38,841 bases of DNA from a virus. Positions 6,449-30,689 of this stretch are shown here, in pieces (within the stretch, counting starts at the first letter, position 1; every line of letters starts with the position of its first letter). Position numbers and translations under genes: made by a program. The notes beneath the pieces are model-generated. The model saw only the letters and a program-made list of their open reading frames with translations. It did not search any database and was not told the DNA's origin. The stretch is taken from positions 1 through 38,841 of the IMG/VR virus record IMGVR_UViG_3300005528_000100; one strand, written 5' to 3'.

Positions 6449-7177
6449 TTAAAATTCGGGCATTTTTGGTTTTTCTTCTTCTGGTGTTTCTGGCTGAGAT
6501 TGGCCTTGTTTTTTGAAAGCAATAGAAATTTTCTTTTGCATTTCATCGTTGTCTCCAGCAATCTCATATGCTGATTTGCCACCACCACTCAGTTCATACC
6601 ATTTAGCACCTTCTTTGTCGGCACTATCAGTTGCTGGTTTAAGTTTGCCTGTTGCTGGATCAACTTCTGAAGGAGAAGTATAACGATAAGCGTTTCCTTC
6701 TTTGTCTTTAATTGTTGATCCAATTCCAATACCAGAAACATCAACTTGCGATTCTGGAAGTTGTGAGCTTAAATAAGATGTGAAATCTTGTGTTATTTGG
6801 GAAGCAAATTGTTCGGCTGTAAGATTTTCAGGATTTAAATCTAATTTGTTTAAATCATTAATGACTTCTTGAGCAATCTTTTGAATGCTGCCTGTATGAG
6901 ATTTCATGATTGAGTTTATTTTACCAGCCATACCAGCTTCTGATGCAGATTTTTGTAAACGCTCACCTGTTTGTTGTAACATTTTTCCTGCTGTTGGACT
7001 CAGCATACCAGCAGCTTTTCCCAATCCTTTTGCTGCCATTGCGCCTAATCTTTTACCAGGCGCAATACCTTTAATTGCACCACCAATTTTGGCTTTAGCG
7101 ACATCAAACATGCCTTCTTCTAAATTTTGATAAACTTTTAAGTAAGCTTCGTTAATGCTAATATCGTCTTTTCTCAT
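6449..7177 (-). CDS. Late-type phage protein with EAY-KV N-terminus
   Basis: 242 residues. Starts MRKDDISINEAYLKVYQNLE, a short motif shared in pattern with the products starting at 11898 and 20854; then a Gly/Ala/Lys-rich stretch (GKRLGAMAAKGLGKAAGML) that looks amphipathic, and an acidic Pro-rich C-terminus. Could be a virion or internal protein; not otherwise recognised. TAAGTATAA lies just upstream of the ATG. Confidence 0.65.
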   Translation of the reverse strand: MRKDDISINEAYLKVYQNLEEGMFDVAKAKIGGAIKGIAPGKRLGAMAAKGLGKAAGMLSPTAGKMLQQTGERLQKSASEAGMAGKINSIMKSHTGSIQKIAQEVINDLNKLDLNPENLTAEQFASQITQDFTSYLSSQLPESQVDVSGIGIGSTIKDKEGNAYRYTSPSEVDPATGKLKPATDSADKEGAKWYELSGGGKSAYEIAGDNDEMQKKISIAFKKQGQSQPETPEEEKPKMPEF

Positions 7178-7186
7178 ATTTTATAC

Positions 7187-7618
7187 TTATTTGATAAAGG
7201 CACAAATATAGTTATCTTTTTGGTCAATTTTATAGTCTCTATATGTTTCTTTGAACTTTTTATCTGTAATTTCATTTACTGGTTCAGTGCAAACCCTTCC
7301 AATACCATACATTTGCACGATTTGTTTTTCAAAATTATAAATTAAATCAACCAACCCCAAACCTTTCATTCTTTGACCGTTTTCATCAAACCCCACACCG
7401 ATATGATTTAAATATAATGTTTTTGTTTCAGGATCATAATCTCTTTCAATTTTCCCATACCTTTTTCCATTCTCATCAACAATTTCCATTTGGTTATATG
7501 GATCATTTTCAATTTTTTTTAAGTTCCAGTTTTTTTGTGAATTCAAAAAATTATTTAAAAGTTTATAATAAACATTTAAATTAAAATTTTTTGATTCAAA
7601 ATAAATTTTAAATTTCAT
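7187..7618 (-). CDS. GNAT-like protein
   Basis: 143 residues. Strand LYLNHIGVGFDE followed by GQRMKGLGLVDLIYNFEKQI resembles acetyl-CoA-binding motif A of GNAT acetyltransferases (R/Q-x-x-G-x-G/A starting a helix). Length fits a single GNAT domain. Substrate unknown. Assignment by motif pattern only. Overlaps the upstream gene by 4 nt. Confidence 0.45.
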   Translation of the reverse strand: MKFKIYFESKNFNLNVYYKLLNNFLNSQKNWNLKKIENDPYNQMEIVDENGKRYGKIERDYDPETKTLYLNHIGVGFDENGQRMKGLGLVDLIYNFEKQIVQMYGIGRVCTEPVNEITDKKFKETYRDYKIDQKDNYICAFIK

Positions 7619-7821
7619 TTTACAAATACTTTACAGTTTGGGTTTTTATGTAAAAAACCCATAGCTTCTTCGTAAATTTCAAAATCTACAGTTGAACCGT
7701 CATCAAAAACCGCTTGGAATTTTGGTGGGTTAATTTTTAAATTATCTAACGTTTCTTTTATTGCTTCATTTATAAAAGCATCAGATGTTTTATCTTCAAA
7801 TGAGTTTCCGCTTTCAAACAT
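7615..7821 (-). CDS. Unknown small acidic protein
   Basis: 68 residues: acidic N-terminal helix (AFINEAIKETLDNL) and a beta-type C-terminal half (FQAVFDDGSTVDFEIYEEA). Not recognised. TAAGTATAACAT directly precedes the ATG. Lies 20 nt downstream of tRNA-Asp. Confidence 0.65.
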   Translation of the reverse strand: MFESGNSFEDKTSDAFINEAIKETLDNLKINPPKFQAVFDDGSTVDFEIYEEAMGFLHKNPNCKVFVK

Positions 7822-7841
7822 ATGTTATACTTATTCAAAAA

Positions 7842-9075: not shown

Positions 9076-9630
9076 TCAAATACTATTTACACTATCTTGG
9101 TAATATAATCTTTTTAGGTTATACAACGCAACATCATTAAATTCTGCAAGTTTACTATATTCCATTTTTACATTTTCGTATAAATTTTTCATATTAGACT
9201 TTGCCCACTTTGAAACTATTTTTGAAAAAGAATAATTTGATTGATCAACTAAATTTTGATTTGTATCAACATCACAAAAACTTGCTTCATGTACTTCGGA
9301 AATAAACATTCCTGAATAAAATCCATTTAATTGATATTTTTCAACAAACTTATCAGCATTGCACCAAAGATAAAAACATTCTTTTTTCTTTTTCAATAAA
9401 TGTACAACATTTTTATCAATAACATACCCACCATCAAAATTACCAACAGAAAATAATCCATCAGGAGAACCATGACCCATCATCATAATTCTGTCGTGTG
9501 TTTCGATGAGATTAATAAGTTGTTCAAAAGAACAGTTATTTTGAATAACAATTTTATTCTCAATCTTTTCGTAGATGGGTTCCAAAAAAACAGTAGAAGT
9601 ATCTTTGGGGTGAATGATTAATGTTTGCAC
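9076..9630 (-). CDS. Caspase-like (clan CD) protein candidate
   Basis: 184 residues. Strand then IMMMGHGSPDGLFS (His-Gly of the clan CD type at about residues 53-54), later ECFYLWCNADKFVEK with a Cys at the end of a hydrophobic strand, then GFYSGMFISEVHEA. The order His-Gly ... Cys after core strands fits caspase-like or CHAT folds, but neither a prodomain nor a known substrate is evident. The start codon is GTG, fixed by a near-perfect promoter 7 nt upstream. Confidence 0.45.
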   Translation of the reverse strand: MQTLIIHPKDTSTVFLEPIYEKIENKIVIQNNCSFEQLINLIETHDRIMMMGHGSPDGLFSVGNFDGGYVIDKNVVHLLKKKKECFYLWCNADKFVEKYQLNGFYSGMFISEVHEASFCDVDTNQNLVDQSNYSFSKIVSKWAKSNMKNLYENVKMEYSKLAEFNDVALYNLKRLYYQDSVNSI

Positions 9631-9637: not shown

Positions 9638-9666
9638 TTTATAGCTGTTTATTTATTTTTTGTCAA
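9638..9666 (-). promoter_or_regulatory. Promoter, leaderless type, near consensus
   Basis: TTGACA-N17-TATAAA, then 7 nt to the GTG start at 9630. The predicted transcript start is 1 nt before the GTG. The -35 overlaps the end of the bS21 gene. Confidence 0.8.
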
Positions 9667-9865
9667 AAGATTTTTTCTTAATCATTTTGAGTCGTTGTCT
9701 GAGTTTTCTTTCTCTCTTTTCTTTTGGCGTTTCAAAAGCTCTTTTAGAGCGAACCGTGTCAATAACCCCCTCGATCATTAATTTTGTTTTTAATCTTTGG
9801 AGTGCTCTATCCAAAGAAATTTTTGGATCACCTTTTTTGAATATTCTTACTTCTGCATTAATCAT
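9653..9865 (-). CDS. rpsU: Ribosomal protein bS21 homologue
   Basis: 70 residues, the usual bS21 length. ISLDRALQRLKTKLMIEGV (residues about 16-34) followed by the Arg/Lys-rich SKRAFETPKEKRERKLRQR gives the two-helix bS21 pattern: a short N-terminal strand, then an Arg-rich helix with a P-x-E-(K/R)-(K/R) hinge. In bacteria bS21 sits on the 30S platform next to the anti-SD and affects initiation; phage bS21 genes are established in large phages. Flanked by tRNA-Gly upstream and the caspase-like gene downstream. A weak promoter (TTGACT-N15-TAAATT, 6 nt to ATG) lies upstream. Confidence 0.85.
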   Translation of the reverse strand: MINAEVRIFKKGDPKISLDRALQRLKTKLMIEGVIDTVRSKRAFETPKEKRERKLRQRLKMIKKKSFDKK

Positions 9866-9899
9866 ATGATTAATTTATTTTTAAAAGCAATAAGTCAAG

Positions 9900-9973
9900 T
9901 GGTGCGGAATGAGGGAATCGAACCCTCGTCCTGACTTTGGAAGAGTCCAGTTTTACCATTAAACTAATTCCGC
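9900..9973 (-). tRNA. tRNA-Gly (TCC)
   Basis: Acceptor GCGGAAT/ATTCCGC, anticodon stem GGACT/AGTCA around CTTCCAA, T-loop TTCGATT; discriminator A followed by a genomic CCA. Confidence 0.9.
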
Positions 9974-9978
9974 AAAAG

Positions 9979-10050
9979 CATCGCCACGGAGAATCGAACT
10001 CCGATTACATGGATGAAAACCATGTGTCCTAACCGTTAGACGATGGCGAC
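9979..10050 (-). tRNA. tRNA-Glu (TTC)
   Basis: Acceptor GTCGCCA/TGGCGAT, anticodon stem CATGG/CCATG around TTTTCAT, T-loop TTCGATT. Confidence 0.9.
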
Positions 10051-13405: not shown

Positions 13406-14578
13406 ATGAATATACATTCAGATAGAAACATGAAGCGTAAAAAAGTTTTACAGCTTCACGGAAGAGGCAAAACCAAAACAGAAATTTCGGAACTCTTGGG
13501 TGTTCCGCGATCAACTATTCACGATTGGGTTACAGGTCGCCGCCGCAATACTACTGTTAAGACAACAGTTCAAAATTCTTTTGATGAGAATGACAACCCC
13601 ATCAATATTATTACTGAAGAAGAAACTACTGAATCTTTTGAAACTCCTTATCTGGCAGGAATGACCAAAAATGATTTCCGCCAAGAACGTTTGAAAGAGT
13701 TTTTGGAAAATATTAAATATATTCAATATCCTGCTCCAGTAAAACCTAAAACATATTCGGTTGCCAACAAATCAACAATGATTATTGGAGACACTCACTT
13801 TGGTTTTGAGTGTTGGGATACGATCAACATCTTTCTTCAAGCTGTCGAAGAAATGAAACCAGAAAGAATTATTCTTAACGGTGATACGGTTGATCTTCTT
13901 TCTATTAGCAAGTATTCTAAAGATCCTAGACATACCCATAGTATTAATGATGAAATTGAGGCTTATCATAAATTTCTCAAAATTCTTCATGATATTACAG
14001 AACCATTTAAAGCAGAGATTCTTGAAACGAATGGAAACCATTCAGGTAATGGTATCGAAGGTCGTTGGTGGAGATATATTTCTGCCAGTGATGATATCAA
14101 ACAACTATTAGAGCTTCCACAAATTGCAGAAAACCTCTCATATACGAAGGTGTTCCATCCTCAAGCTGATTGGTCAAGAATTCGCTTAGTAGATGCTACA
14201 GATGATATGGATTCTCTCGTAGAACTGCCAAACAATGTGTTTGTTTATCATGGTGATATTGTTCGTAAGCATGGTGGCTTCTCTGCTAGAGGTAATTTTG
14301 AAAAACATTTTGCTTCTACTATTACAAGCCATACTCATCGTTTGGGATCAACCTATCAAACCATTCCAAAGATTGGTTCTCGTCCAATGGAAATTATTGA
14401 GAACCATGAAATCGGATGTGCATGTAAACTGAATCCTACCTATGTTAAAGGCGCAAATTGGCAAAATGGTTTTTGTATTGTCAATTATTCTGAAGATAGC
14501 ACAGGCGTTGAATTGGTTAAGGTTACGAATAAAAAAGCCACAATCAATTCATTGGGTAAAACTTTGAAGGTTGACTAA
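13406..14578 (+). CDS. HTH-metallophosphoesterase
   Basis: 390 residues. Residues about 12-45 (LQLHGRGKTKTEISELLGVPR) form a helix-turn-helix. A calcineurin-like phosphoesterase domain follows: GDTHFG (motif I, about 127), NGDTVD (about 155), ETNGNH (motif III, about 210), YHGD and TSHTHR (about 300-325), giving the full dimetal ligand set. Related phage enzymes are annotated as DNA-repair exonuclease-like; the N-terminal HTH suggests targeting to DNA. It is the only gene on this strand in the neighbourhood and runs into tmRNA 24 nt downstream, so the two may be co-transcribed. Confidence 0.8.
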   Translation: MNIHSDRNMKRKKVLQLHGRGKTKTEISELLGVPRSTIHDWVTGRRRNTTVKTTVQNSFDENDNPINIITEEETTESFETPYLAGMTKNDFRQERLKEFLENIKYIQYPAPVKPKTYSVANKSTMIIGDTHFGFECWDTINIFLQAVEEMKPERIILNGDTVDLLSISKYSKDPRHTHSINDEIEAYHKFLKILHDITEPFKAEILETNGNHSGNGIEGRWWRYISASDDIKQLLELPQIAENLSYTKVFHPQADWSRIRLVDATDDMDSLVELPNNVFVYHGDIVRKHGGFSARGNFEKHFASTITSHTHRLGSTYQTIPKIGSRPMEIIENHEIGCACKLNPTYVKGANWQNGFCIVNYSEDSTGVELVKVTNKKATINSLGKTLKVD

Positions 14579-15209: not shown

Positions 15210-16046
15210 TTAGTTTCTATATTTTGCTGTTGATGGTAAAATCTTTTCTTTAATTTTTCTTATTAATTTAACTTCTTTTTCTTCATCTTCGACTACAATT
15301 TCCTCTTCATCAAATTTTTTATTTGCTGCTATATTATAAGCTAATACTAAAGCAATAGCCAAAGGATCGAATACAACAATAATAGCAAGCGTGAACCATT
15401 TAACAATTGTGTTGATATCGGTTCCAAAAAGTTCTGCTGCATATTTGAGTGTTCCGATATCTTTTTGTTTACCACTTTGTTTTTGTGCTTCCAGTGTTTG
15501 TAAATCAAGGGCTTTTATTTCTTCAAATATTTGATTCATTCTTCCTTTAGATTGTGTAATTTCTTCTCCTGACTTTTTAATATCTTCATAAACTGGTGCG
15601 GCTGATCTACGAGACATTGATGGGAGTCTTTGTTCTTGTGAAAGGCGAGATTGGTTAAGTGTTTCTACACGCATTGTCAAAGACTCTAATTCTTTTTCTA
15701 GTATCGCTTTTTGCGATACCAAAAATTCCTGTTGGGTTTCTGCTTGAGAATATTCAATAAGACTTGTTTGATAAGCTGATGTTAAAAACCCAAATATACC
15801 CATCGATGTAATCCCCATCAAAGTTAAAATGGCAACAAGAATATAAGTTTTTAACAACAGATTAGTCTTGTGCCAGTATCGGTAAAGAAAACTTGTGGCT
15901 ACAAGCTTACCGACTTCCAAAGCTCCTGCCATAACGAGAACTGAAATAAATGCTCCTGCATAGAGTGTAGCAATACCATAAACGGAAAAATATGCTGCAA
16001 CACCAGCAATGACAAATGCTGTAAAAGCTAAAATACCTACGAACAT
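15210..16046 (-). CDS. Multi-pass membrane protein with coiled coil
   Basis: 278 residues. TM segments at about 3-22, 28-50, 65-90 and 215-240; between them residues about 95-190 form a coiled coil (QKAILEKELESLTMRVETL). The C-terminus is acidic then basic. Phages of marine type carry proteins of this plan without known function. It lies 13 nt downstream of the beta-rich structural candidate, so late expression is likely. Could link the membrane to assembly or lysis; unproven. Confidence 0.65.
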   Translation of the reverse strand: MFVGILAFTAFVIAGVAAYFSVYGIATLYAGAFISVLVMAGALEVGKLVATSFLYRYWHKTNLLLKTYILVAILTLMGITSMGIFGFLTSAYQTSLIEYSQAETQQEFLVSQKAILEKELESLTMRVETLNQSRLSQEQRLPSMSRRSAAPVYEDIKKSGEEITQSKGRMNQIFEEIKALDLQTLEAQKQSGKQKDIGTLKYAAELFGTDINTIVKWFTLAIIVVFDPLAIALVLAYNIAANKKFDEEEIVVEDEEKEVKLIRKIKEKILPSTAKYRN

Positions 16047-16059
16047 AACTATCTAATAT

Positions 16060-17643
16060 TTATCTGCTAATCTCTTCCCAATCCATTGAACCAAACACTT
16101 TAGCTTTAGCTGTATCTGTTGATAATACTAGTGTTAGTTCATGAAAGATCCCATTTAAAGAATCTCTTTCAAGTTGAAATTTAAATAAAGCTTCTTTCAA
16201 TATATCTACTTGCGTAGAGCCTTGGTTTGATGTAACCATGTAACCTGATGCTAAAACTCTTCCCCCAGATATGGATGTTCTATCTGTTCTGTATTCAACA
16301 CAAGAATCGGGTCCTGCATTTACCCAAGTAACTCCTCCTCCAGATGTTATTCCACTTGCTACCAATTTCCATTTATATGCTCCTAAATCTTTTCCGAGTA
16401 TGGATAAAGCTGTTAAAATTGCGATGGCATCTTTTTTATCTGATTTAAGCCTCAGTGTTATGATGGGATAATCTACTCCAGCTAATGTCAATTCTGTGGG
16501 GGAAGTAATTGATAAATCAACAGCTTGTTGTAAGCCTCGTAATTCATATCCTCCTTCTGAAATTACAGAAGAACATATTTGCTTCATGGTTCTTGTAACC
16601 CCTGTAGCTGCCTTGTTAGTAATTTCATATCTTAAAGGCAATGAAGCAGTGGTGATATATGTTGAAGCAATTCTGTTGGCATGGTGGAAAGAATGACAAT
16701 GCACAAACTTTCCATCAATTACAAACCCACAGCGAACAGTTCCTACACCTAACCATTCAACGTCCATCCAAGAAATTTGAGCCTTTGTTATATCTAAAGT
16801 GAATCCAGAAGGACCAGTTCCATCAAGCTTGTCAACATTCCAACCAGATAGAGGTACTATTGTTTCTGAAGGAGCACCAGTAACTAAGGATCTTTCAACA
16901 AAACTTATTACCCCATCATCCAATTGGAAATAAATTCCATTATCTTGTCCGAAGTAACCAGTTCTTTGTCTTAAACCTATAGCAGAAGGAGCAAAGACGA
17001 AAGTGTTTAATATCAGAAGAGATTTGCCAGGTTGATATGAAAATACTTTTGTAGTCTCTCTAATGACAGAAGAACTTAGTGCTCCTGTAACTGTCATCTC
17101 TACAAGACCTTGGTTTTGGTTAAATGCATAGGTTCCATTAACAGCAGTTAAAGATGCCCAAAGATTATTGTCTCTATATCTATGACTTGAATCAAAAAGA
17201 GTCAAAGGTGTTGATACTCTGAGTCTGCCAAATGCATCAAGTTGTGTTGGTTCTGGTGTTGTTACACTGTTAATTGTATTGGTTACATTAACATTTAAAG
17301 ATGATGATGATTGTTTAACTGTTGCAAAGTTTCCTTGTTTATCTCCAATGGTAATATCATCAACAGATGATTCTAAATCTTGGGATAAAACTCTTAATGC
17401 ATTTAACCCATCAGATGATGTTACATCGGCTCTTAAATTTGAATCCCAATCTTTTATTTCGACTGCACCAATATCAACATTTCCTGCCGATAAAGAAACT
17501 GTAAAATCATCAAAGTTTGTTATATATGATGCTTGTGCAAACAAATCTCTGTTTACATCATTGTTTACTTGAATCCAAGAATTATTATAACCTACATTAC
17601 AATTAAAGGGTTCTCCCGATAAAACATTTACTAACATTGCCAT
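16060..17643 (-). CDS. Beta-rich virion structural protein candidate
   Basis: 527 residues, Ser/Thr/Val/Gly rich and almost all beta, with few Lys clusters. It contains QLDAFGRLRVSTPLTLFDSS then HRYRDNNLWASL, a combination I know from phage structural proteins (fibre, neck or decoration type). No signal peptide or catalytic motif. The annotated start MAMLVNV is preceded by GTAAGTATAAT; counting 8 nt from TATAAT points to the second Met (MLVNV, 17637). The following membrane gene is in the same unit. Confidence 0.65.
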   Translation of the reverse strand: MAMLVNVLSGEPFNCNVGYNNSWIQVNNDVNRDLFAQASYITNFDDFTVSLSAGNVDIGAVEIKDWDSNLRADVTSSDGLNALRVLSQDLESSVDDITIGDKQGNFATVKQSSSSLNVNVTNTINSVTTPEPTQLDAFGRLRVSTPLTLFDSSHRYRDNNLWASLTAVNGTYAFNQNQGLVEMTVTGALSSSVIRETTKVFSYQPGKSLLILNTFVFAPSAIGLRQRTGYFGQDNGIYFQLDDGVISFVERSLVTGAPSETIVPLSGWNVDKLDGTGPSGFTLDITKAQISWMDVEWLGVGTVRCGFVIDGKFVHCHSFHHANRIASTYITTASLPLRYEITNKAATGVTRTMKQICSSVISEGGYELRGLQQAVDLSITSPTELTLAGVDYPIITLRLKSDKKDAIAILTALSILGKDLGAYKWKLVASGITSGGGVTWVNAGPDSCVEYRTDRTSISGGRVLASGYMVTSNQGSTQVDILKEALFKFQLERDSLNGIFHELTLVLSTDTAKAKVFGSMDWEEISR

Positions 17644-17670
17644 TTATTATACTTACCGTATAATAAATTA

Positions 17671-18612
17671 TTATTTTGTAGATATATACTCTGTTGTTCT
17701 AAAACAGCTTAAATCTTTCCCACCAGAATAACTTATAGAACTCTGTAATGCTTGAGTCATTTCACGCAATCTTTCTTCCAAAGATTTATGAGGCTCTAAA
17801 TCCAAGATTGTTCCTTCGATATGGTTATCATGTCCTTTGTTGTAAGCACTGGCAGATCCATAATAAACTTTTCTACCATTCACAACCAATGCAGGTGAAT
17901 CATCACAGGCAGCAAACATAGATCCTGCCATAACCCAATCTGCACCAGCAACTAATGCCTTGGCAATATCTCCGTAATGGTTGATACCACCATCGGCAAA
18001 CATTGGTTTTTTGGCAAACTTTGCACACTCAATAAGAGCAGTAAACATTGGAATATGAAAGCCAGTTTGAAACTTCGTCGTACATGCCTTACCGGGTCCA
18101 ATACCAATGCGCGTTGCATCTGCTCCTGCTTCTTCCAAATAGCGAACACCTTCAGGTGTTGTTACGTTTCCTGCAATAATAAAAACATTGGGAAAAATAT
18201 TACGAATTTTATCAATCGTTTTTTTAACTTTGATATGATGTCCATGAGCAACATCAATCGTAATGTAATCTAATCTCCAACCATTCTTGTGAATTTCTAC
18301 GAGTTCATCTTCGGAGTCTTGGTTTACACCTGTACTGATACTGACAAATTTATAACCTTCTTCGTTTGCTTTTTTAACAAATGGAACTGTCACTGAATCA
18401 AAACGATGCATCATATAAAAGTAACCGTTGTCGCTCAACCATTTACACCATTCCGCATGAATTACTGTCTTCATGTTTGATGGAACAACTGGTAATTTAA
18501 ATTTATGATTACCCAATTGAATTGAAGTGTCAGCAAGTTTTCTCGATTCCAGTTCAGAATATTTTGGAATCAAATAAACATCATCATAATTAAGAGCGGT
18601 ATATTTCAACAT
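17671..18612 (-). CDS. guaC: GMP reductase / IMP dehydrogenase family enzyme
   Basis: 313 residues, a single TIM barrel without CBS domains, the length of GMP reductase rather than IMPDH. NYDDVYLIPKYSE opens the barrel; VVPSNMKTV, AGNVTTPEG, GIGPGKACTTK (catalytic Cys and Thr loop) and FADGGINHYGDIAKAL with AGSMFAACDDSP (phosphate binding) follow the family order. GMP reductase converts GMP and NADPH to IMP and ammonia; in a phage it would rebalance purine pools for replication. The usual Ser before the catalytic Cys is Ala here. Its promoter gives a 2-nt leader. Confidence 0.85.
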   Translation of the reverse strand: MLKYTALNYDDVYLIPKYSELESRKLADTSIQLGNHKFKLPVVPSNMKTVIHAEWCKWLSDNGYFYMMHRFDSVTVPFVKKANEEGYKFVSISTGVNQDSEDELVEIHKNGWRLDYITIDVAHGHHIKVKKTIDKIRNIFPNVFIIAGNVTTPEGVRYLEEAGADATRIGIGPGKACTTKFQTGFHIPMFTALIECAKFAKKPMFADGGINHYGDIAKALVAGADWVMAGSMFAACDDSPALVVNGRKVYYGSASAYNKGHDNHIEGTILDLEPHKSLEERLREMTQALQSSISYSGGKDLSCFRTTEYISTK

Positions 18613-21730: not shown

Positions 21731-22384
21731 ATGGAAACTATTAACGAGATTTGGAAACCTGTATTTTTAGAAGAATTTAAACATTTATACGAAGTATCAA
21801 ACAAAGGAAATATCCGCCGTCGAGACGGTAAGAAAAAATTGTATGGACATATCAATAGACTAGGATATCACGAAGTTAAATTCTACAACAAAGGACACAA
21901 ATCATTTTTGGTTCATAGATTGGTAAAAATAACCTTTGATTACAGAGAAGATTATAGCAACTACCATGTCCATCATAGAAGTCCAGATAAAACCAACAAT
22001 GCATACTATAACCTGCAATATCTGACCCCCCAAGAACACAATGAACTGGAAAGAAAAAAGGGAACTAACAAAGTAGGAGTCATGGGAAGAAAAAGTCTGA
22101 AGTTCAAGGGACTTATCGGAAAATTCGACAAAGAAGGATACCTCTTAAACTTTTACGAAGGACTGTTTGATTTGACCTCAAATGGTTACAATTCAAAATT
22201 GGTTTACAGGTGTGTCAATAAAAGATCAAAAATATATGCAAATCATATATGGAGAAGATTTCCCAAAAATCATAAACCAGAAATTGGAAAACTATATGAT
22301 ACAAACGATCCAATGTTTGATAAAACTATAGCAAAGTTTAAAAAAGAAAAGAAAAAAGAATACCAGATGGCACTCAAATTCTAA
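21731..22384 (+). CDS. NUMOD4-HNH homing endonuclease
   Basis: 217 residues. EIWKPVFLEEFKHLYEVSNK then GNIRRRDGKK and GYHEVKFYNKGHKSFLVHRL is the NUMOD4 plus HNH-core arrangement; HVHHRSPDKTNNAYYNLQYL with TPQEHNE supplies the HNH His/Asn residues. The C-terminal part likely binds DNA. Such enzymes spread by cutting intronless or genus-related genomes. First gene of a four-gene plus-strand cluster. Confidence 0.85.
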   Translation: METINEIWKPVFLEEFKHLYEVSNKGNIRRRDGKKKLYGHINRLGYHEVKFYNKGHKSFLVHRLVKITFDYREDYSNYHVHHRSPDKTNNAYYNLQYLTPQEHNELERKKGTNKVGVMGRKSLKFKGLIGKFDKEGYLLNFYEGLFDLTSNGYNSKLVYRCVNKRSKIYANHIWRRFPKNHKPEIGKLYDTNDPMFDKTIAKFKKEKKKEYQMALKF

Positions 22385-22855: not shown

Positions 22856-23058
22856 TTAGCTATAAACCAATTACCAATTATAAATTATATCTCCGATATT
22901 GTGATTTGATAGCAAATTATAATATTATTCAAATATATAAAGAACTTCTAATCAAATTATCAGAAGAAGAACTGGATCTAAACCTATATCTTCATAAAAA
23001 TATGAAAGAAATGGAAATGAGATCTGTTCTTAATAAGCTACACAGAGAGTACCTATGA
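22852..23058 (+). CDS. Unknown small protein
   Basis: 68 residues, helical, aromatic N-terminus (YKPITNYKLYLRYCDLIANY). Overlaps both neighbours by 4 nt (ATGA-type), so it is translated within the endonuclease cluster. Not recognised. Confidence 0.65.
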   Translation: MISYKPITNYKLYLRYCDLIANYNIIQIYKELLIKLSEEELDLNLYLHKNMKEMEMRSVLNKLHREYL

Positions 23059-23606
23059 TGGAACAATTAGATTTTTTTGAAACTTTGTGTCCAACTTGTC
23101 CTGTTTGTAACCAATCTTTTAAAAAAACAACACACAATAAAAAATATTGTTCTGGTACATGTAGAGAAATAAAAGAAAAAGAAAAATACAAATATTCTGA
23201 ATATTTGTTCTGTTCTGTATGTAAAAAAAATTTTACCAAAACAAATAGAAGATTTAAAAAATACTGTAGTCAGTTATGTTATAAAGAAAAAAACAAACAC
23301 AGAAACCGTTTAATGACAGAACTTCGAAATATTTTATTTATGGTTGATAATCCAAAAGATGAAACCGTTTTCAATCTAACAGGAATAAAATCTAAAGACT
23401 TTTTAAAAAAACATTTGGAACAACAATTTAAGGAAGGAATGACATGGGAAAATTATGGAACAATGGGGTGGCATATTGATCACATTAATCCTTGCAGTTC
23501 TTTTGATTTAACTCTTCAAGAAGAAAGAAAAAAGTGTTTTCATTATACTAATCTTCAACCTTTATGGTGGTGGGAAAATACTTCCAAAGGAAATAGGATA
23601 ATATAG
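23055..23606 (+). CDS. HNH endonuclease with two zinc knuckles
   Basis: 183 residues. Two Cys4 modules (CPVCNQSF...YCSGTC and CSVCKKNF...YCSQLC), then the HNH core WHIDHINPCSSFDLTLQEER with FHYTNLQPLWWWEN and the final Asn/Lys. This is a standard freestanding phage HNH endonuclease. Last gene of the plus-strand cluster, followed by a terminator. Confidence 0.88.
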   Translation: MMEQLDFFETLCPTCPVCNQSFKKTTHNKKYCSGTCREIKEKEKYKYSEYLFCSVCKKNFTKTNRRFKKYCSQLCYKEKNKHRNRLMTELRNILFMVDNPKDETVFNLTGIKSKDFLKKHLEQQFKEGMTWENYGTMGWHIDHINPCSSFDLTLQEERKKCFHYTNLQPLWWWENTSKGNRII

Positions 23607-23841: not shown

Positions 23842-24042
23842 CTATGGGTTGATCCCGAACTTCTTGAGGTATCTCCTCGTAGGATGGAAGCCTCTATCTG
23901 AACGGTGCCAAGCCAAGGGTGGCATGGTCTTATCGTGAGGGTAGAGTATACCTCCGATGGTTGTCTCCTTGTTCCAGAAGAGTCCAGAGAGGAGTGCTTT
24001 GTTGATGAGGTTACCGACTCGTTTGCTGTGTGATGATTTCAT
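23842..24042 (-). CDS. Unknown small basic protein
   Basis: 66 residues: MKSSHSKRVGNLINKALLSG, then GGILYPHDKTMPPLAWHRSD and a basic end (RRYLKKFGINP). Not recognised. The start is fixed by the promoter at 24053-24081. Monocistronic, with its own terminator. Confidence 0.65.
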   Translation of the reverse strand: MKSSHSKRVGNLINKALLSGLFWNKETTIGGILYPHDKTMPPLAWHRSDRGFHPTRRYLKKFGINP

Positions 24043-24052
24043 AACAGTATCA

Positions 24053-24081
24053 ATGATAGATGATGAGTGGTTGGTGGACAA
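24053..24081 (-). promoter_or_regulatory. Promoter, near-leaderless
   Basis: TTGTCC-N17-TATCAT, then 10 nt to the ATG at 24042. Confidence 0.65.
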
Positions 24082-24181
24082 CCGCCGCGAGTGTCATAAA
24101 GAATAGATTGTTCTACTGATGGGAACCTTTGGTTGTCATAAGAACTGGTGGGTGGGTTAGAACCACTGTTCAACTGGGACA

Positions 24182-24210
24182 ACAAGAAGACATGAATCAT
24201 ATTTTCTTGT
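24182..24210 (+). repeat. ACAAGAAAA dyad, inverted copy
   Basis: ACAAGAAGAC...ATTTTCTTGT; the only copy whose ATGAATCAT core reads on the plus strand. It lies 100 bp upstream of its promoter rather than 27-28. Confidence 0.7.
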
Positions 24211-24244
24211 GAGCGCAGGTGACGGGCTGGACAGATGTGGGAAA

Positions 24245-24276
24245 GAAAAAACCCCCACGGATTTCTCCGTGAGGGT
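24245..24276 (-). terminator. Intrinsic terminator
   Basis: On the minus strand CCCTCACGGA-GAAA-TCCGTGGGGG then TTTTTTCTTTC. Ends the 24703 gene. Confidence 0.85.
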
Positions 24277-24295
24277 TCGTGTGAGTTGGGTTGGT

Positions 24296-24703
24296 TTAGC
24301 CCCAAGTCAAGCCGCCGACATCGCTTGGTGAGACTGTGGTAACCACCCCTTGAGCCAAGAGCATTTGGGCACAGAGTTCGGGGTCTTCGCAAACTCCGTT
24401 GTAGAGTTCGCCCTCCCACTTGTCGGTGTTGTTTTCGAGGAGGTCGTAGACATCGCCACGGAGCTTGCCCCATCCGAAGATGCGGAAGTTGTCCATTGGT
24501 CCCATGTCGGGGTTGTCGTTGATCTCGCGCCAGAGTTCGTGCTCCAGATCGAGAGTGTCCTCGTTGCGCGAACGGGCAGCATTGAGGAGTTCCTTGTGGT
24601 TGGCTTGCGTCTTGGTGAGACGCTCCATTGTTCCCTTGGGCACTTCTGCGAGTGCTTCGAGGGTGTTGCTGTTGGTGGTGATTGGATATAAGCGTGTTCC
24701 CAT
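24296..24703 (-). CDS. Unknown early-region protein
   Basis: 135 residues, acidic and helical: KTQANHKELLNAARSRNEDT, RIFGWGKLRGDVYDLL and a Cys-containing C-terminus (CEDPELCAQML). Not recognised. Monocistronic: dyad, promoter, gene, terminator. The start context is CTCGTTATG, with no SD. Confidence 0.65.
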   Translation of the reverse strand: MGTRLYPITTNSNTLEALAEVPKGTMERLTKTQANHKELLNAARSRNEDTLDLEHELWREINDNPDMGPMDNFRIFGWGKLRGDVYDLLENNTDKWEGELYNGVCEDPELCAQMLLAQGVVTTVSPSDVGGLTWG

Positions 24704-24713
24704 AACGAGGATG

Positions 24714-24741
24714 AGTGTATGTGGAATGGTCAGGAAGGGAA
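24714..24741 (-). promoter_or_regulatory. Promoter, near-leaderless
   Basis: TTCCCT-N16-TACACT, then 10 nt to the ATG. The weak -35 is supported by the fixed 27-bp distance to the dyad. Confidence 0.55.
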
Positions 24742-24768
24742 GAAGTTTTTTGCCCGTTGTTGGACTCT

Positions 24769-24797
24769 ACAAGAAAATAAGATTCATACTTTCTTGT
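24769..24797 (-). repeat. ACAAGAAAA dyad
   Basis: ACAAGAAAAT...CTTTCTTGT; perfect outer arms, 27 bp upstream of the -35 of the 24703 gene, with a T/A-tract between. Confidence 0.8.
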
Positions 24798-24843
24798 AAG
24801 GGGTTTGCAGGTGAGAAGTCAGGGAAGTTCTGGTCTGGGAAAA

Positions 24844-24874
24844 AGAAAAACCCAACCACCTTTCGATGGTTGGG
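24844..24874 (-). terminator. Intrinsic terminator
   Basis: On the minus strand CCCAACCA-N8-TGGTTGGG then TTTTTCTTTT. Ends the 25303 gene. Confidence 0.85.
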
Positions 24875-24895
24875 TTGGTTGGGAGGAAAGTATTC

Positions 24896-25303
24896 CTATC
24901 CGTAGATGGCTTCTCCGAAGAGACAACATTGGAGGAAGACATCGCCAGTATCAGCATCTTCGTTTTCGTTGATGAAATCCATCATGTGACGAGGATACTT
25001 TTCAGCCATGATCTTAAGACCTCTTTCGATGGCTTCCAGATCAAGGCGTTTGTCTTCGGAGTCTTCATCTTCCATGTCACCCACGACGAGTGCCCCGCCT
25101 TCGTTCAAGGGATAATCCAGATGGCGGTAGACTTGATCCTTATCGGTTCGGAACGTGAGAGCTTTTGGCTCCACGAATTCGTTGATGACATACCAGTAGT
25201 TGCTGCCACCTTCAAAGGCAGAGCAGAGCAGATCGGAAATACGTTCCAAGCTGATGCTATGCTTGACGGCGACTGACAGGGTTTGAGGTGTTTGTGTTTT
25301 CAT
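24896..25303 (-). CDS. Recurrent phage protein with GGSNYWY motif
   Basis: 135 residues. LLCSAFEGGSNYWYVIN near residues 27-43 is a motif I have seen in phage proteins of unknown function; acidic middle (GDMEDEDSEDKR), then a helix (IERGLKIMAEKYPRH) and D-F. Monocistronic with dyad, promoter and terminator. Confidence 0.65.
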   Translation of the reverse strand: MKTQTPQTLSVAVKHSISLERISDLLCSAFEGGSNYWYVINEFVEPKALTFRTDKDQVYRHLDYPLNEGGALVVGDMEDEDSEDKRLDLEAIERGLKIMAEKYPRHMMDFINENEDADTGDVFLQCCLFGEAIYG

Positions 25304-25313
25304 AACGAGCGCG

Positions 25314-25341
25314 ATTATACACAGGATCCAATGGCTGTGAA
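25314..25341 (-). promoter_or_regulatory. Promoter, near-leaderless
   Basis: TTCACA-N16-TATAAT, then 10 nt (ending CGTT) to the ATG at 25303. A GGAAAAAAA tract sits just upstream of the -35. Confidence 0.75.
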
Positions 25342-25369
25342 GGACTTTTTTTCCTGAACCTCGAACACT

Positions 25370-25400
25370 ACAAGAAAATAAGATTCATGCTTTCTTTTGT
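25370..25400 (-). repeat. ACAAGAAAA dyad
   Basis: ACAAGAAAAT...TTTCTTTTGT, right arm with two extra T; 28 bp upstream of the -35. Confidence 0.75.
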
Positions 25401-25463
25401 TCTGGGTTGCAGGTGAGATGTGGATTTGTTTTGTGTGTCGTTGTTTTGTGTGTGTTGGTATGA

Positions 25464-25497
25464 AAGAAAAAAACCCACCGCCCTTTCGGACGATGGG
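25464..25497 (-). terminator. Intrinsic terminator
   Basis: On the minus strand CCCATCG-N10-CGGTGGG (one mismatch) then TTTTTTTCTTTC. Ends the SprT-like gene. Confidence 0.75.
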
Positions 25498-25517
25498 TTG
25501 ATCACACCACAAATGTT

Positions 25518-25892
25518 TCAGCAATCAAACGGGTCGTTTTGACAAGGCCCATTGAAGATTTGTTTGGGGTATACTTTGTTTCGTTTGATGTAGATTCCCC
25601 AGTAAGCAAGAGCCTTGTCCTCTACCTTTTTGAACAGGGTTCCATGATCAATGCCACCTGCATAGAAGTGACAGACTTCATGGATGGTGTAGTAGGTGAC
25701 GTAACGATCCCCACGATTCCAAGCCCACTTTGGCAGAGAGAACCAACCCTTGTGGGTGTAGGCTTTGCCGTTGCGAGTGTCCTTGATGATTGCGCGAGGA
25801 CGAATCGACAGGTTGAGAAACTTTGCCGTCAAGTCTGCGATACCTTGGATATCTTCCAGCTTGAGTGTGGATGGAATTGCATTAGTAGTCAT
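25518..25892 (-). CDS. SprT-like zinc metalloprotease-type protein
   Basis: 124 residues. YYTIHEVCHFYAGG (about 67-80) is an HExxH zincin motif in a SprT-like setting: a strand, then HE-x-x-H, then HGTLFKKVEDKAL where the second His-Gly supplies the third ligand. SprT/Spartan proteins act on DNA-protein crosslinks or as small metalloproteases. The frame is open further upstream, but the promoter -10 at 25903-25908 fixes the start at MTTNAI. Monocistronic. Confidence 0.7.
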   Translation of the reverse strand: MTTNAIPSTLKLEDIQGIADLTAKFLNLSIRPRAIIKDTRNGKAYTHKGWFSLPKWAWNRGDRYVTYYTIHEVCHFYAGGIDHGTLFKKVEDKALAYWGIYIKRNKVYPKQIFNGPCQNDPFDC

Positions 25893-25902
25893 AACGTCTG
25901 CG

Positions 25903-25930
25903 AGTATAGATGGGGCGGATCGAGGGACAA
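25903..25930 (-). promoter_or_regulatory. Promoter, near-leaderless
   Basis: TTGTCC-N16-TATACT, then 10 nt (ending CGTT) to the ATG at 25892. Confidence 0.75.
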
Positions 25931-25957
25931 GGAATTTTTTGCAGGTGGATCGAGACA

Positions 25958-25988
25958 ACAAGAAAATAAGATTCATCCTTTCTTTTGA
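25958..25988 (-). repeat. ACAAGAAAA dyad
   Basis: ACAAGAAAAT...CTTTCTTTTGA; 27 bp upstream of the -35; right arm degenerate. Confidence 0.7.
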
Positions 25989-26040
25989 GAGGTGGAATCG
26001 AACCAAATGATTTCGGACAGAGAGAAAGTGTAACTCAAAC

Positions 26041-26068
26041 AAAAAACCCGCCCCCTTTCGGGAGCGGG
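26041..26068 (-). terminator. Intrinsic terminator
   Basis: On the minus strand CCCGCTCCC-GAAA-GGGGGCGGG then TTTTTTG. Ends the 26630 gene. Confidence 0.85.
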
Positions 26069-26087
26069 TTGGTTTGAGCGGGAGGGA

Positions 26088-26630
26088 TTAGTGCAATTCG
26101 ATCAGATCGCCGCAGACCTTAACACCTGCGATGTTTTCGGGGTTAAGGATGAATTGACCGAATTTGTTACGCTTAAACTCCAGAGCCTTTTCGATGTCAC
26201 GCTTTGCCAGAGTAAGCGGACGGCTGTTGACAGGCTTCTTCGGATTTGTCGGAGGAGCAACTTGCTCCTTTTGTTGGACGAATCCGTAGAGGTAGATTTC
26301 ACCAGTTTCTTTGTGTTGGCGAATACCTTTGCCGATGTTATCGAATGTATCTTTTTGCGTGTAGCTGCTGCTCACGCCTTGGGTGAGCGTTTCGGTGAGC
26401 GACTGAAGCATTTGCCCCTTGGCTTCGGTTTCAATGTCGTTGCTCGGCTGATAGGCTTCCAGAGCGATTTTGTCCGCTTCGCAAGCTGCCTTGTAGTCGA
26501 TACCAAAGTTAAGCGTGTAACGCGAGGTTTCGCCTGTGCCTTTGGTCATGTAGATGAACGAGATGAATTTGCATCCGTTCGTGGTGGATTCCCTCAAGAT
26601 GTCGAGGGCATTGATTTTGATGTTAGCCAT
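26088..26630 (-). CDS. Unknown early-region protein
   Basis: 180 residues. N-terminal alpha/beta part (TTNGCKFISFIYMTKGTGET), a central helix, then Pro-rich linker (APPTNPKKPVNS) and a basic helical end (RDIEKALEFKRNKFGQFIL). Not recognised. Unlike its neighbours it has a leader of about 50 nt, with a GTC-GAAA-GAC hairpin and tandem CACAAA units. Confidence 0.65.
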   Translation of the reverse strand: MANIKINALDILRESTTNGCKFISFIYMTKGTGETSRYTLNFGIDYKAACEADKIALEAYQPSNDIETEAKGQMLQSLTETLTQGVSSSYTQKDTFDNIGKGIRQHKETGEIYLYGFVQQKEQVAPPTNPKKPVNSRPLTLAKRDIEKALEFKRNKFGQFILNPENIAGVKVCGDLIELH

Positions 26631-26689
26631 AACTTTTGTCTATTTTGTTTGGTTGTTTGTGTTTGTGTTTGTGTCTTTCGACAATGCCG

Positions 26690-26717
26690 ACAATACCAGA
26701 AGGCACAGCCGATGCAA
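26690..26717 (-). promoter_or_regulatory. Promoter with long leader
   Basis: TTGCAT-N16-TATTGT; predicted start near 26683, about 53 nt before the ATG at 26630. Dyad 27 bp upstream. Confidence 0.6.
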
Positions 26718-26744
26718 CGGATTTTTTTCCCGTGGGAACACTCT

Positions 26745-26774
26745 ACAAGAAAATAAGATTCATGCTTTCTTTTG
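26745..26774 (-). repeat. ACAAGAAAA dyad
   Basis: ACAAGAAAAT...CTTTCTTTTGA, 27 bp upstream of the -35 at 26712-26717. Confidence 0.7.
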
Positions 26775-26943
26775 AGCCTGAAAATTGCCCAGGCGAAGAA
26801 GCCGATTTCGTTCTATCAGTTGGCGGAATTCCTGGCGAGGAGGACACCAGACAAGAAAATAAGTTTCCCAATTCTCACATACTAATGAGTTTGGGTTATT
26901 AAATATAAGTTATTAGATATAACCTATTGATATTCAACTACAA
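26775..26943. other. Intergenic region, no gene seen
   Basis: No credible ORF. It holds one half-dyad (26851) and an AT-rich stretch at about 26880-26935 with three related units (TTATTAAATATAAG, TTATTAGATATAACC, TATTGATATTC), bounded by GGTTAT and ATAACC. Could be a regulatory spacer or easily melted DNA. Confidence 0.5.
26851..26867 (-). repeat. ACAAGAAAATAAGTTTC half-site
   Basis: Left arm plus AAGTTTC; right arm absent. 106 bp from the full copy at 26745. Confidence 0.65.
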
Positions 26944-26977
26944 AGAAAAGGGGTGGTGACCACTCGGCCACCACCCC
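26944..26977 (-). terminator. Intrinsic terminator
   Basis: On the minus strand GGGGTGGTG-N10-CACCACCCC then TTTTCTTTG. Ends the 27310 gene. Confidence 0.8.
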
Positions 26978-26998
26978 AACACACAACACACCTATCTA

Positions 26999-27310
26999 CT
27001 AATTTTCTAAATCTACATAGATATTCTTCTTTGCCAATGCATTGAGAATATCGAAGAACTCTTCGCGGCCTTTGATAGATCCATCCTCTTCAATATTGTT
27101 TCCAAAGGACTCTTCAATGTCCAATACATCTTCCGCATGGTGTCCAAAGGAGATTGCATCTATGAGCGTTCTATTGTTGTCTCCCCAACTGAAGGGTGCA
27201 TCTTGGCTAATCACATCATAGAACCAGCCATGCCAATCTTTGGGAATGATATCTGATATTGGAACGAACTTTGCAATTTGAGTTTCTGGTAGTTTAAGTT
27301 TCGTTTTCAT
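26999..27310 (-). CDS. Unknown early-region protein
   Basis: 103 residues, acidic: DWHGWFYDVISQDAPFSWGD, then HHAEDVLDIEESFGNN and a helical end. Not recognised. A half-dyad lies only 20 nt upstream of the ATG and a conserved 43-bp block 81 bp upstream; no consensus -35/-10 is visible, so control differs from its neighbours. Confidence 0.65.
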   Translation of the reverse strand: MKTKLKLPETQIAKFVPISDIIPKDWHGWFYDVISQDAPFSWGDNNRTLIDAISFGHHAEDVLDIEESFGNNIEEDGSIKGREEFFDILNALAKKNIYVDLEN

Positions 27311-27329
27311 TTTATTTAATTTTTCGCTT

Positions 27330-27346
27330 ACAAGAAAATAAGTTTC
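27330..27346 (-). repeat. ACAAGAAAATAAGTTTC half-site
   Basis: Half-site very close to the 27310 start, closer than in any other unit. Confidence 0.65.
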
Positions 27347-27390
27347 TGGATTATCTAATCGCGTGTGCGCGTATACGTATATGCGTCACC

Positions 27391-27433
27391 TGCGGGTATG
27401 CGACACCATGTTACAATTCAACACACTGTTGCA
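27391..27433. repeat. 43-bp conserved block, copy 1
   Basis: Begins TGCGGGTATGCGACACCATG and ends AACACACTGTTGCA; 39 of 43 positions match copy 2 at 30059. It covers the last codons of the 27690 gene and lies upstream of the 27310 gene beside a near-palindrome (CGTATACGTATATGCG). Confidence 0.75.
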
Positions 27434-27690
27434 AATTTACTCGTCTTTACTGGATAAAGCTCGAAAGGTTCATTATCGAAGTTGTAATGATAGTAGTCCA
27501 AGTATTGAAGAGTCTTTTGAAGTTGTTTGGCAAAGAGAATAGTGCGGCGGCAACGACTGCACTCGTAGAAGCCAAACGATGGAACCTCTACAAGCTCACC
27601 CATTGAGATGACTTGTTGTTTGTCGATGACAGATACGAGTTTGCCAACTTTGCACTTGGGACAATCAGAGTTTTCTTTAGGTGTTTTCAT
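27418..27690 (-). CDS. Zinc-ribbon protein
   Basis: 90 residues. CPKCKVGKL (10-13) and CSRCRR (about 49-52) form a CxxC...CxxC zinc ribbon of about 40 residues, followed by a helix and an acidic/aromatic tail. Zinc ribbons of this size bind nucleic acid or proteins; partner unknown. Start context GTGTTATG, promoter and dyad upstream. Confidence 0.7.
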   Translation of the reverse strand: MKTPKENSDCPKCKVGKLVSVIDKQQVISMGELVEVPSFGFYECSRCRRTILFAKQLQKTLQYLDYYHYNFDNEPFELYPVKTSKFATVC

Positions 27691-27699
27691 AACACGGAC

Positions 27700-27728
27700 A
27701 TTGAATCATTTTAAAAGAACTATGGCAA
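27700..27728 (-). promoter_or_regulatory. Promoter, near-leaderless
   Basis: TTGCCA-N17-TTCAAT, then 9 nt to the ATG at 27690; weak -10, but the 28-bp dyad spacing supports it. Confidence 0.5.
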
Positions 27729-27756
27729 GAACTTTTTTTCCTGATCCTCGAACACG

Positions 27757-27785
27757 ACAAGAAAATATGATTCATCTTTTCTTTA
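27757..27785 (-). repeat. ACAAGAAAA dyad
   Basis: ACAAGAAAATATGATTCAT then CTTTTCTTTAT; 28 bp upstream of the -35. Confidence 0.7.
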
Positions 27786-27830
27786 TCGCCTGAAAATATC
27801 AACTAAAGTTGATGTCAGTATATACAAAAG

Positions 27831-27858
27831 AAAAAACCCCCTGTCTTTCGACAGAGGG
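27831..27858 (-). terminator. Intrinsic terminator of the GP88 gene
   Basis: On the minus strand CCCTCTGTC-GAAA-GACAGGGGG then TTTTTTCTTTTG. Confidence 0.85.
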
Positions 27859-27882
27859 TTTTGAGAAGGGATTTTCTGTTTG

Positions 27883-28524
27883 TCAGTGTTGCTTGTAGCT
27901 AATGCAATAAACCGACCTGTCCCAACAAGCTCGACAATCTCCACAGATATTGTTTTGCTTGGAAGCGGGGCAAGTAAATCCATCCTTGGATACACCGCTC
28001 ACTTGAACCCCCAAGCGTTGCGCGACGGAATCGGGAGTTTTACCATCAAGCATATAGGCAGAGAGACGAACACAGAGGTTGTCGGGAAAAGAATTTTCAA
28101 CCTTTGCGATGTAGTCAGAGACGATGCCGTATTCTCTGGTGGGAAGCCAGAATTTGATTGACGGAAGATTCTTTGCAACTTGCACAATCTTTTGCAGGTG
28201 GTCGATGTCTTGTAAATCTCCGCTGTCATGCCAGCGAAAGAATCCACTCTTTTCCTTTTTATTGATAAGGAATGTAATGGCATCAACCCACAGAGGATTA
28301 GTCAAAGACTGAAAACGTTTTTCCATAGCATCAATGACGTTTTGGAAAATGTAACGACCCTTGAGCGCATAGCACTTGGAGCAAATGCTTCCCTTGATCT
28401 TGCGAAGCAAAGAACCGACCTTGCAACGAAAGGCAGGGATTGAATAAGCATGACCGGGCATCTTGCTCGGTGCGGATAGTGTGTGAACGATTTGTTCGGC
28501 TTGTTTTGTTGTGGTGAATTTCAT
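27883..28524 (-). CDS. GP88-family phage protein
   Basis: 213 residues. ICSKCYALKGRYIF, later FFRWHDSGDLQDIDHLQ, KFWLPTREYG and a Cys-rich C-terminus (CPASKQNNICGDCRACWD) match the phage GP88 family, which carries conserved Cys residues that probably bind metal; its biochemical role is not established. The start MKFTTT (28524) is chosen because the -10 at 28534-28539 lies upstream; a Met three codons earlier would precede the transcript start. Confidence 0.8.
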   Translation of the reverse strand: MKFTTTKQAEQIVHTLSAPSKMPGHAYSIPAFRCKVGSLLRKIKGSICSKCYALKGRYIFQNVIDAMEKRFQSLTNPLWVDAITFLINKKEKSGFFRWHDSGDLQDIDHLQKIVQVAKNLPSIKFWLPTREYGIVSDYIAKVENSFPDNLCVRLSAYMLDGKTPDSVAQRLGVQVSGVSKDGFTCPASKQNNICGDCRACWDRSVYCISYKQH

Positions 28525-28533
28525 AACGCGCAA

Positions 28534-28562
28534 AGAGTAAGCAATTGCCTCGAACCTGACAA
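28534..28562 (-). promoter_or_regulatory. Promoter, near-leaderless
   Basis: TTGTCA-N17-TACTCT, then 9 nt to the ATG at 28524; GGAAAAAAA tract upstream. Confidence 0.75.
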
Positions 28563-28589
28563 GGATTTTTTTCCTGAATCTCGAACACT

Positions 28590-28620
28590 ACAAGAAAATA
28601 TGATTCATCTTTTCTTTTGT
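28590..28620 (-). repeat. ACAAGAAAA dyad
   Basis: ACAAGAAAATATGATTCAT then CTTTTCTTTTGT; 27 bp upstream of the -35. Confidence 0.75.
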
Positions 28621-28661
28621 TCTGGGTTGCCCTATGCGAATGACTTCTCATACGGGGAAAA

Positions 28662-28690
28662 GAAAAAAGACACAGACTTTCGCCTGTGCC
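28662..28690. terminator. Bidirectional intrinsic terminator
   Basis: GACACAG-N8-CTGTGCC with T-runs on both sides (TTTCTTTT on plus, CTTTTTTC on minus). Ends the tRNA-Cys operon. Confidence 0.8.
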
Positions 28691-28723
28691 TTTCTTTTGT
28701 TATGACTACACCAATCCTAAAAA

Positions 28724-28903
28724 TTATTTGTAATCAAAGCGTTTCCACTTATCGAGTTGGGTCTTGAGATGCTTATAGGTTTCCGAATCATCACCTGCAT
28801 ACTCATACAAACAATCCACTGCTTCCGATGCGAGAATGACAAGTTTGGTGAGTTGATCATTGTCAACCATGACCATTTTTTTATTGGTAATTTCTTTTTT
28901 CAT
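28724..28903 (-). CDS. Unknown small protein
   Basis: 59 residues, helical: DQLTKLVILASEAVDCLYEY, then YKHLKTQLDKWKRFDYK. Not recognised. The start is within TAATG, overlapping the stop of the TM protein gene, so it is coupled. Confidence 0.65.
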   Translation of the reverse strand: MKKEITNKKMVMVDNDQLTKLVILASEAVDCLYEYAGDDSETYKHLKTQLDKWKRFDYK

Positions 28904-29231: not shown

Positions 29232-29268
29232 GGTTTTTTATTTGTATCAGTTTTTTGGTTTGTTGTCA

Positions 29269-30681: not shown

Positions 30682-30689
30682 AATATTTG

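Follow-up and report, generated by a model that had tools for sequence, protein, structure and literature searches.

Phage genes for the small ribosomal protein bS21 are common. It has already been hypothesised in print (PMC9723584) that phage-encoded bS21 becomes part of ribosomes and gives phage mRNA an advantage; the same paper cites a report that the bS21 of phage HTVC008M is incorporated into E. coli ribosomes (Mizuno et al. 2019, PMC6375957). In F. johnsoniae, Tyr54 of bS21 is stacked against the 16S tail and contributes to masking of the anti-SD (PMC9976891). In E. coli, bS21 is required for SD-containing mRNA, and 61S ribosomes without bS21 still translate leaderless mRNA (PMC4929434).

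The stretch of DNA analysed here (the window) is a virus record of 38.8 kb. It is co-linear with the region between 40 and 78 kb of the 211.6-kb contig G001, with some stretches divergent or unmatched. As the alignment with G001 continues on either side of the GC step, located near 24 kb, the change in GC content is not a misjoin, and a chimera at this position was rejected. The window encodes rIIA and rIIB, and the TerL and the gp23 capsid protein of G001 are of T4 type, with less than 40% identity to those of T4-like cultivated phages; these genes, together with a TATAAATA-like late box, assign the phage to the T4-type group. The G001 capsid has at least 600 matches in IMG/VR.

A total of 13 tRNAs and one tmRNA were found in the window. 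The genes of tRNA-Gly and tRNA-Glu lie directly upstream of the bS21 gene on the same strand, and bS21 begins 34 nt downstream of tRNA-Gly, in agreement with the sequence-only reading, which had placed bS21 next to tRNAs. The tmRNA is 458 nt long and carries an unusual tag, identical to that of G001. A phage-encoded GMP reductase (17671-18612) was uninformative about the host, its nearest cellular copies being 49% identical and belonging to Burkholderiales and lactic acid bacteria; a scan of genome contigs for bS21, also intended to indicate the host, found no relative. Other genes in the window include one (13406-14578) whose product has a helix-turn-helix N-terminus fused to a metallophosphoesterase-like domain, and an HNH (NUMOD4) endonuclease gene (21731-22384) near an endonuclease VII-like gene (23055-23606), close to the border of the GC regions. 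The coordinates of the features discussed below are presented in Table 1.

Table 1. Positions of the genes and of the observed or predicted signals in the window.
Feature	Position	Strand	Remarks
Late box ATAAGTA	7184-7190	minus	-13 of gene 6449-7177
Late box ATAAGTA	7828-7834	minus	-13 of gene 7615-7821
Caspase/CHAT-fold protein gene	9076-9630	minus	22 nt downstream of bS21, same strand
Phage bS21 gene	9653-9865	minus	70 aa; Pfam/PHROG match, alignment to 7jil and 9i5v
18-bp perfect palindrome ATTAATCAT/ATGATTAAT	9857-9874	none	centre coincides with the start codon of bS21 and the predicted start of transcription
Candidate -10 / late-type box TAAATT (inside ATAAATT)	9872-9877	minus	6 nt before ATG; kept in 5 contigs
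Candidate -35 element TTGACT	9893-9898	minus	just past tRNA-Gly 3' end
tRNA-Gly(TCC)	9900-9973	minus	ARAGORN and Rfam
tRNA-Glu(TTC)	9978-10050	minus	ARAGORN and Rfam
tmRNA, tag ADEEMLLAA	14602-15059	plus	ARAGORN and Rfam
Late box ATAAATA	16057-16063	minus	-17 of gene 15210-16046
Late-type box GTAAGTA	17650-17656	minus	-13 of structural gene 16060-17643
Early promoter module	24704-24809	minus	near-palindrome, A-tract, -35, -10, CGTT-ATG
Early promoter module	25304-25410	minus	TTCACA-16-TATAAT, ends 10 nt before ATG
Early promoter module	25893-25998	minus	TTGTCC-16-TATACT, ends 10 nt before ATG
Early promoter module	27691-27797	minus	aligned repeat module
Early promoter module	28525-28630	minus	aligned repeat module
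Early promoter module	37728-37831	minus	aligned repeat module

The identification of the gene as bS21 was confirmed by a match to the Pfam family PF01165 (Ribosomal_S21) with an E value of 1.4e-10 and 41.1 bits, against a curated cut-off of 27, as well as by a match to PHROG 21469 'ribosomal protein S21'. Orthologues 80-87% identical to it are present in four contigs of IMG/VR, whereas a tblastn search of 50,697 phage records (E 0.01) gave no match. In the bS21 tree, built on 63 columns and containing only two Bacteroidia-type sequences, the phage lineage forms a long separate branch with its position unplaced. An insertion of 6-7 residues near the N-terminus is kept in the four closest relatives and is missing from the more distant copy in contig G006. 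The T4-type relative G013 (L121, 1474-1677) carries a bS21 of very different sequence, of the SYLKP type, which suggests that bS21 may have been acquired separately within the clade.

Lys60 of the phage protein aligns with Tyr54 of F. johnsoniae bS21, and all five orthologues, like the G006 copy, have lysine at this position. The equivalent residue is lysine or arginine in 49 of 52 cellular sequences from Pseudomonadota and Bacillota, tyrosine in both Bacteroidia-type PDB chains (7jil, from F. johnsoniae, and 9i5v, taken as Bacteroidia-type from its sequence) and histidine or tyrosine in two bS21 proteins of phages of the type described by Chen et al. 2022 (Chen-type). The phage bS21 has lysine where tyrosine or another aromatic residue would be expected of an anti-SD-masking bS21 of Bacteroidia type. 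The protein also contains an AF-x-x-P motif that is present in both Bacteroidia-type PDB chains and in none of the 52 sequences from Pseudomonadota and Bacillota.

The bS21 gene itself has no SD. Its start region, ATTAATCATATGATTAAT, is a perfect 18-bp palindrome with its centre between -1 and +1 of the start, and it is identical in all five contigs. Palindromes of this length were found in only 4 of 1426 start regions, every one belonging to a bS21 gene. The order of elements, TTGAC followed by AAAATAAATTAATCAT-ATG-ATTAAT, is kept in all five contigs with a variable spacer, and TTGAC is kept even where the tRNA is absent, while the position of the TAAATT box coincides with the late-box peak of the clade. 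The RNA hairpin predicted for the palindrome is weak (-4.2 kcal/mol), and judging from the sequence the element may equally be a DNA operator or an RNA switch. A wider phage motif was rejected, as the other copies inspected in IMG/VR fall within coding sequence.

The frequency of SD-like words, defined as at least 4 nt in the region from -20 to -4, was compared with that in shuffled upstream sequence, using starts from a gene caller that ignores ribosome-binding sites. Such words precede 13% of the low-GC genes of the window, against 16-17% after shuffling, and 9-21% of the genes in the window and eleven relatives, against about 7-16%; the frequencies of G007 and G013 are somewhat above the shuffled ones. 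In the controls SD was enriched, with 70% against 31% in T4, 75% against 37% in phiM9 and 45% against 27% in S-RIM50. The description of the genome as SD-poor therefore holds for the window and the eleven relatives. Five-base SD words (AGGAG, GGAGG or AAGGA) were found for 59 of the 1424 genes of the clade (4%), and in three Chen-type phages for 1 of 309 genes (Fisher P 2e-4).

In the low-GC genes of G001 and G003 (403 genes), the words ATAAGTAT, ATAAATAT and GTAAATAT before the ATG are enriched about 70- to 270-fold relative to coding sequence. The start of the late box peaks at -13/-12 in the genes of these two contigs, and the median distance from the end of the box to the ATG is 6 nt (n = 225, ten relatives). 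In T4, TATAAATA ends 14-41 nt before the ATG in 19 of 20 cases, mostly at 23-29 nt. The T4 late box spans about -13 to -6 relative to the transcript start, so that a box abutting the ATG predicts that transcription starts on the AUG or directly beside it. Bacterial leaderless genes, in which a TA-like signal lies about 10-12 bp before the start, have been interpreted in this way too (PMC3160421), and a subset of the phage genes has this arrangement, with the late box starting at -13/-12 or the early -10 element at -16 to -11.

In the modules of the high-GC part, the -10 element ends 9-10 nt before the ATG, and CGTT stands immediately before the ATG, with 79% agreement at each position in the alignment of 14 module copies from the window and G001. 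A transcript starting at the G of CGTT would have a leader of 3 nt. A generic TTGACA/TATAAT scan over the early genes was not clearly above shuffles, and the claim for early genes is therefore limited to the module-bearing ones and rests on the aligned repeat modules. The Bacteroidia promoter motif TAnnTTTG showed no clustering near starts. The high-GC early region (24000-38841) is organised as genes split by repeated modules with UUCG-like hairpins and a promoter at the gene start, and the near-palindrome within these modules reads ACAAGAAAATAAGATTCAT..TTTCTTGT.

A late box stands at the start of 301 of 1424 genes, about a fifth. Of the same-strand neighbours, 52-62% are no more than 20 nt apart, so many starts are internal to operons. 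The promoter positions support the view that many phage mRNAs would be leaderless or near-leaderless, and the earlier claim of leaderless genes can be kept for the subset of genes in which the promoter position fits; a statement that most genes are leaderless found no support, as more than half follow closely behind another gene.

Among 142 gene families, each present in at least three contigs, gp23 is the clearest conserved exception to the lack of SD. In this family four of six members have an SD and the other two are apparently start-miscalled; a four-base SD core lies within the last 20 nt at 48 of 78 gp23 loci, compared with 4% of all genes for the stricter five-base words (binomial P 2e-23, in a simple test that ignores relatedness). 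In most cases the capsid SD is a short AGGA or AGGAG. A few other small families also scored, among them one encoding a 217-aa protein (3/4, AAGGA words only) and one encoding a different 217-aa protein (2/3). The SD of the capsid gene directs attention to the part of bS21 biology that concerns the SD and anti-SD, rather than to leaderless starts.

The gene following bS21 gave nothing convincing in comparisons with Pfam, PHROGs, PADLOC and PDB sequences. His52 (in GHG) and Cys89 (in WC) are invariant in a 23-member alignment of its family, and the AlphaFold model based on these 23 sequences (pLDDT 93) is caspase-like. The best structural match was SAVED-CHAT, with Z 12.0 over 158 residues, followed by caspases, separases and gingipains, while Foldseek alone returned no match under E 0.001 for the same model. 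The structural matches of a first model, built from three sequences with pLDDT 49, were discarded. The fold, with the histidine (HG) and the cysteine at strand ends, assigns the protein to the caspase/CHAT fold (clan CD), and on the basis of the model the product may be a protease. The family has 29 matches in IMG/VR, and relatives occur in many large phage contigs of up to 476 kb. A homologue is also carried by L278 (MT837816), which is labelled 'Bacteriophage sp.' and resembles a bacterial chromosome fragment.

As the best explanation, to which we assign a probability of about 0.4, we propose that the phage bS21 joins the host 30S subunit and tunes its platform for mixed messages, in a genome built for SD-independent starts. 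Along with the tRNAs and the tmRNA, the protein would belong to a translation kit carried by this large T4-type phage, and it would most likely swap with the host bS21 on the 30S subunit during infection. It would keep or tune the platform for mRNAs without SD, many of them at or near leaderless, and for a few SD-led mRNAs, the capsid mRNA foremost. Tyr54, by which the anti-SD is masked in Bacteroidia, is missing from it, and the anti-SD should therefore stay accessible. The presence of the capsid SD in distant relatives as well counts against this explanation, as do the restriction of late boxes near the ATG to about a fifth of the genes, the many operon-internal starts and the unplaced position of the lineage in the tree. 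The direct coupling of bS21 to leaderless mRNAs, proposed in the sequence-only reading, was not supported. The leaderless geometry is clade-wide, being shared by a relative whose bS21 is very different and by records, though fragmentary ones, in which no bS21 was found, and early genes would be read before any phage bS21 exists. As E. coli ribosomes without bS21 also translate leaderless mRNA, the SD-less leaderless layout probably reflects adaptation of the whole clade to the host rather than an effect of bS21.

The alternatives differ in what the phage protein would change. If it only topped up an exchangeable 30S protein during a long infection, the choice of mRNA would remain as it was. 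The place of the gene among other parts that could be topped up, the tRNAs and the tmRNA, agrees with this, as does the occurrence of the leaderless, SD-less layout where bS21 differs or none was found. However, a pure supply copy is expected to stay near the bS21 of the host, whereas the phage sequence is far from the sampled cellular proteins, on its long separate branch, and its N-terminal insertion is conserved in the four closest relatives; we regard such simple supply as doubtful. A change on the SD side is unlikely in our estimation: in a Bacteroidia-like host, Tyr54 would hide the anti-SD and the phage lysine would free it, so that the SD-bearing capsid mRNA would be read efficiently. 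In vitro, F. johnsoniae bS21 with Y54A or a C-terminal truncation gives a 3- to 5-fold rise in the translation of reporters with a strong SD (PMC9976891), and the lysine at the Tyr54 position, the capsid gene as the clearest conserved SD carrier and the AF-x-x-P motif shared with the Bacteroidia-type chains point the same way, along with the occurrence of the family of the neighbouring gene in Chen-type phages and in a gut contig that looks bacterial. Nevertheless, the Bacteroidia host is an assumption, and the early promoters resemble TTGACA/TATAAT and not TAnnTTTG. Moreover, the usually short capsid SD differs from the exceptionally strong SD needed in rpsU autoregulation, and initiation on SD-less mRNA, the kind made from most phage genes, is reduced by C-terminally truncated bS21.

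The caspase/CHAT-fold neighbour could enter the explanation if it removed the host bS21, or another host factor, and thereby let the phage bS21 in, and McNutt et al. (PMC9976891) have speculated on a phage protease against host bS21. The close same-strand position of the gene, the caspase fold and the invariant histidine and cysteine are consistent with this, but the gene adjoins bS21 in only three of four relatives, it has no match in G003, which has bS21, and among the 19 other records that carry it bS21 was found in only three, and in none within 3 kb. Such a swap module is very unlikely. A combined form, in which two start modes exist, the Tyr54-less bS21 opens the anti-SD for the capsid mRNA and the caspase-fold neighbour possibly clears the host bS21, is in our judgement rather improbable. 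Least probable of all is a role away from the working ribosome, in which this small basic protein would act as an RNA binder or as a regulator of phage genes. Tight control of the bS21 gene is suggested by the palindrome spanning its start, and the bS21 from a Bacillota species is reported to occur in a non-ribosomal RNP (PMC12054373); against this, the phage protein scores above the curated cut-off and its conserved core is that of the bS21 family. Exchange into the host 30S subunit, within a larger translation kit, remains the preferred reading.

Like T4 and the T4-type cyanophages, the phage has gp23, TerL, rIIA/rIIB and a T4-type late box. In T4, S-RIM50 and P-SSM2, SD words are enriched, although weakly in P-SSM2, and this box lies mostly 21-40 nt before the ATG, whereas in the present phage the box directly adjoins the start codon and there is no enrichment of SD words. 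If the transcripts are leaderless, the T4 late-promoter system has shifted the transcription start onto the AUG. In the literature searched, we found no description of such a shift, of a lineage of T4-type phages whose late boxes adjoin the AUG, of a capsid gene that keeps its SD in such a genome or of a palindromic bS21 start. The control of T4 gene e (PMC3014915) is similar in that the start region is possibly closed in read-through transcripts and open in those from the gene-adjacent promoter; the element here is different, a palindrome of 18 bp spanning the start of bS21, which has a predicted weak hairpin and may equally serve as a DNA operator.

Pelagibacter phage HTVC008M likewise encodes its own bS21, but no close sequence relation to it was seen (tblastn, 50,697 phage records, E 0.01). 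The autoregulation of rpsU in F. johnsoniae (PMC9976891) is comparable in that bS21 controls the availability of the anti-SD and a rare SD gene stands amid an SD-less rest. In F. johnsoniae it is rpsU itself that carries the SD, and the anti-SD is masked by Tyr54, whereas here bS21 has neither an SD nor Tyr54 and the clearest SD gene is that of the capsid. The lineage offers a testable system, with SD-free genes, a predicted leaderless layout, a capsid SD and a key anti-SD residue in bS21 unlike that of the known Bacteroidetes phages, and a link of bS21 with the SD on the capsid mRNA is the one worth testing. The Bacteroidetes phages that Chen et al. (2022, PMC9723584) described are also large and have their own bS21, several tRNAs and SD-less genes, for which hijacking was hypothesised. 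However, their bS21 gene lies on the opposite strand among the terminase, portal, protease and capsid genes and has an aromatic residue at position 54. In G001, bS21 (70 kb) is distant from TerL (116 kb) and the capsid gene (191 kb), and its neighbours are tRNAs and small ORFs. The bS21 gene described here stands in a tRNA cluster in the orientation of its neighbours, has lysine at position 54 and belongs to a different sequence lineage.
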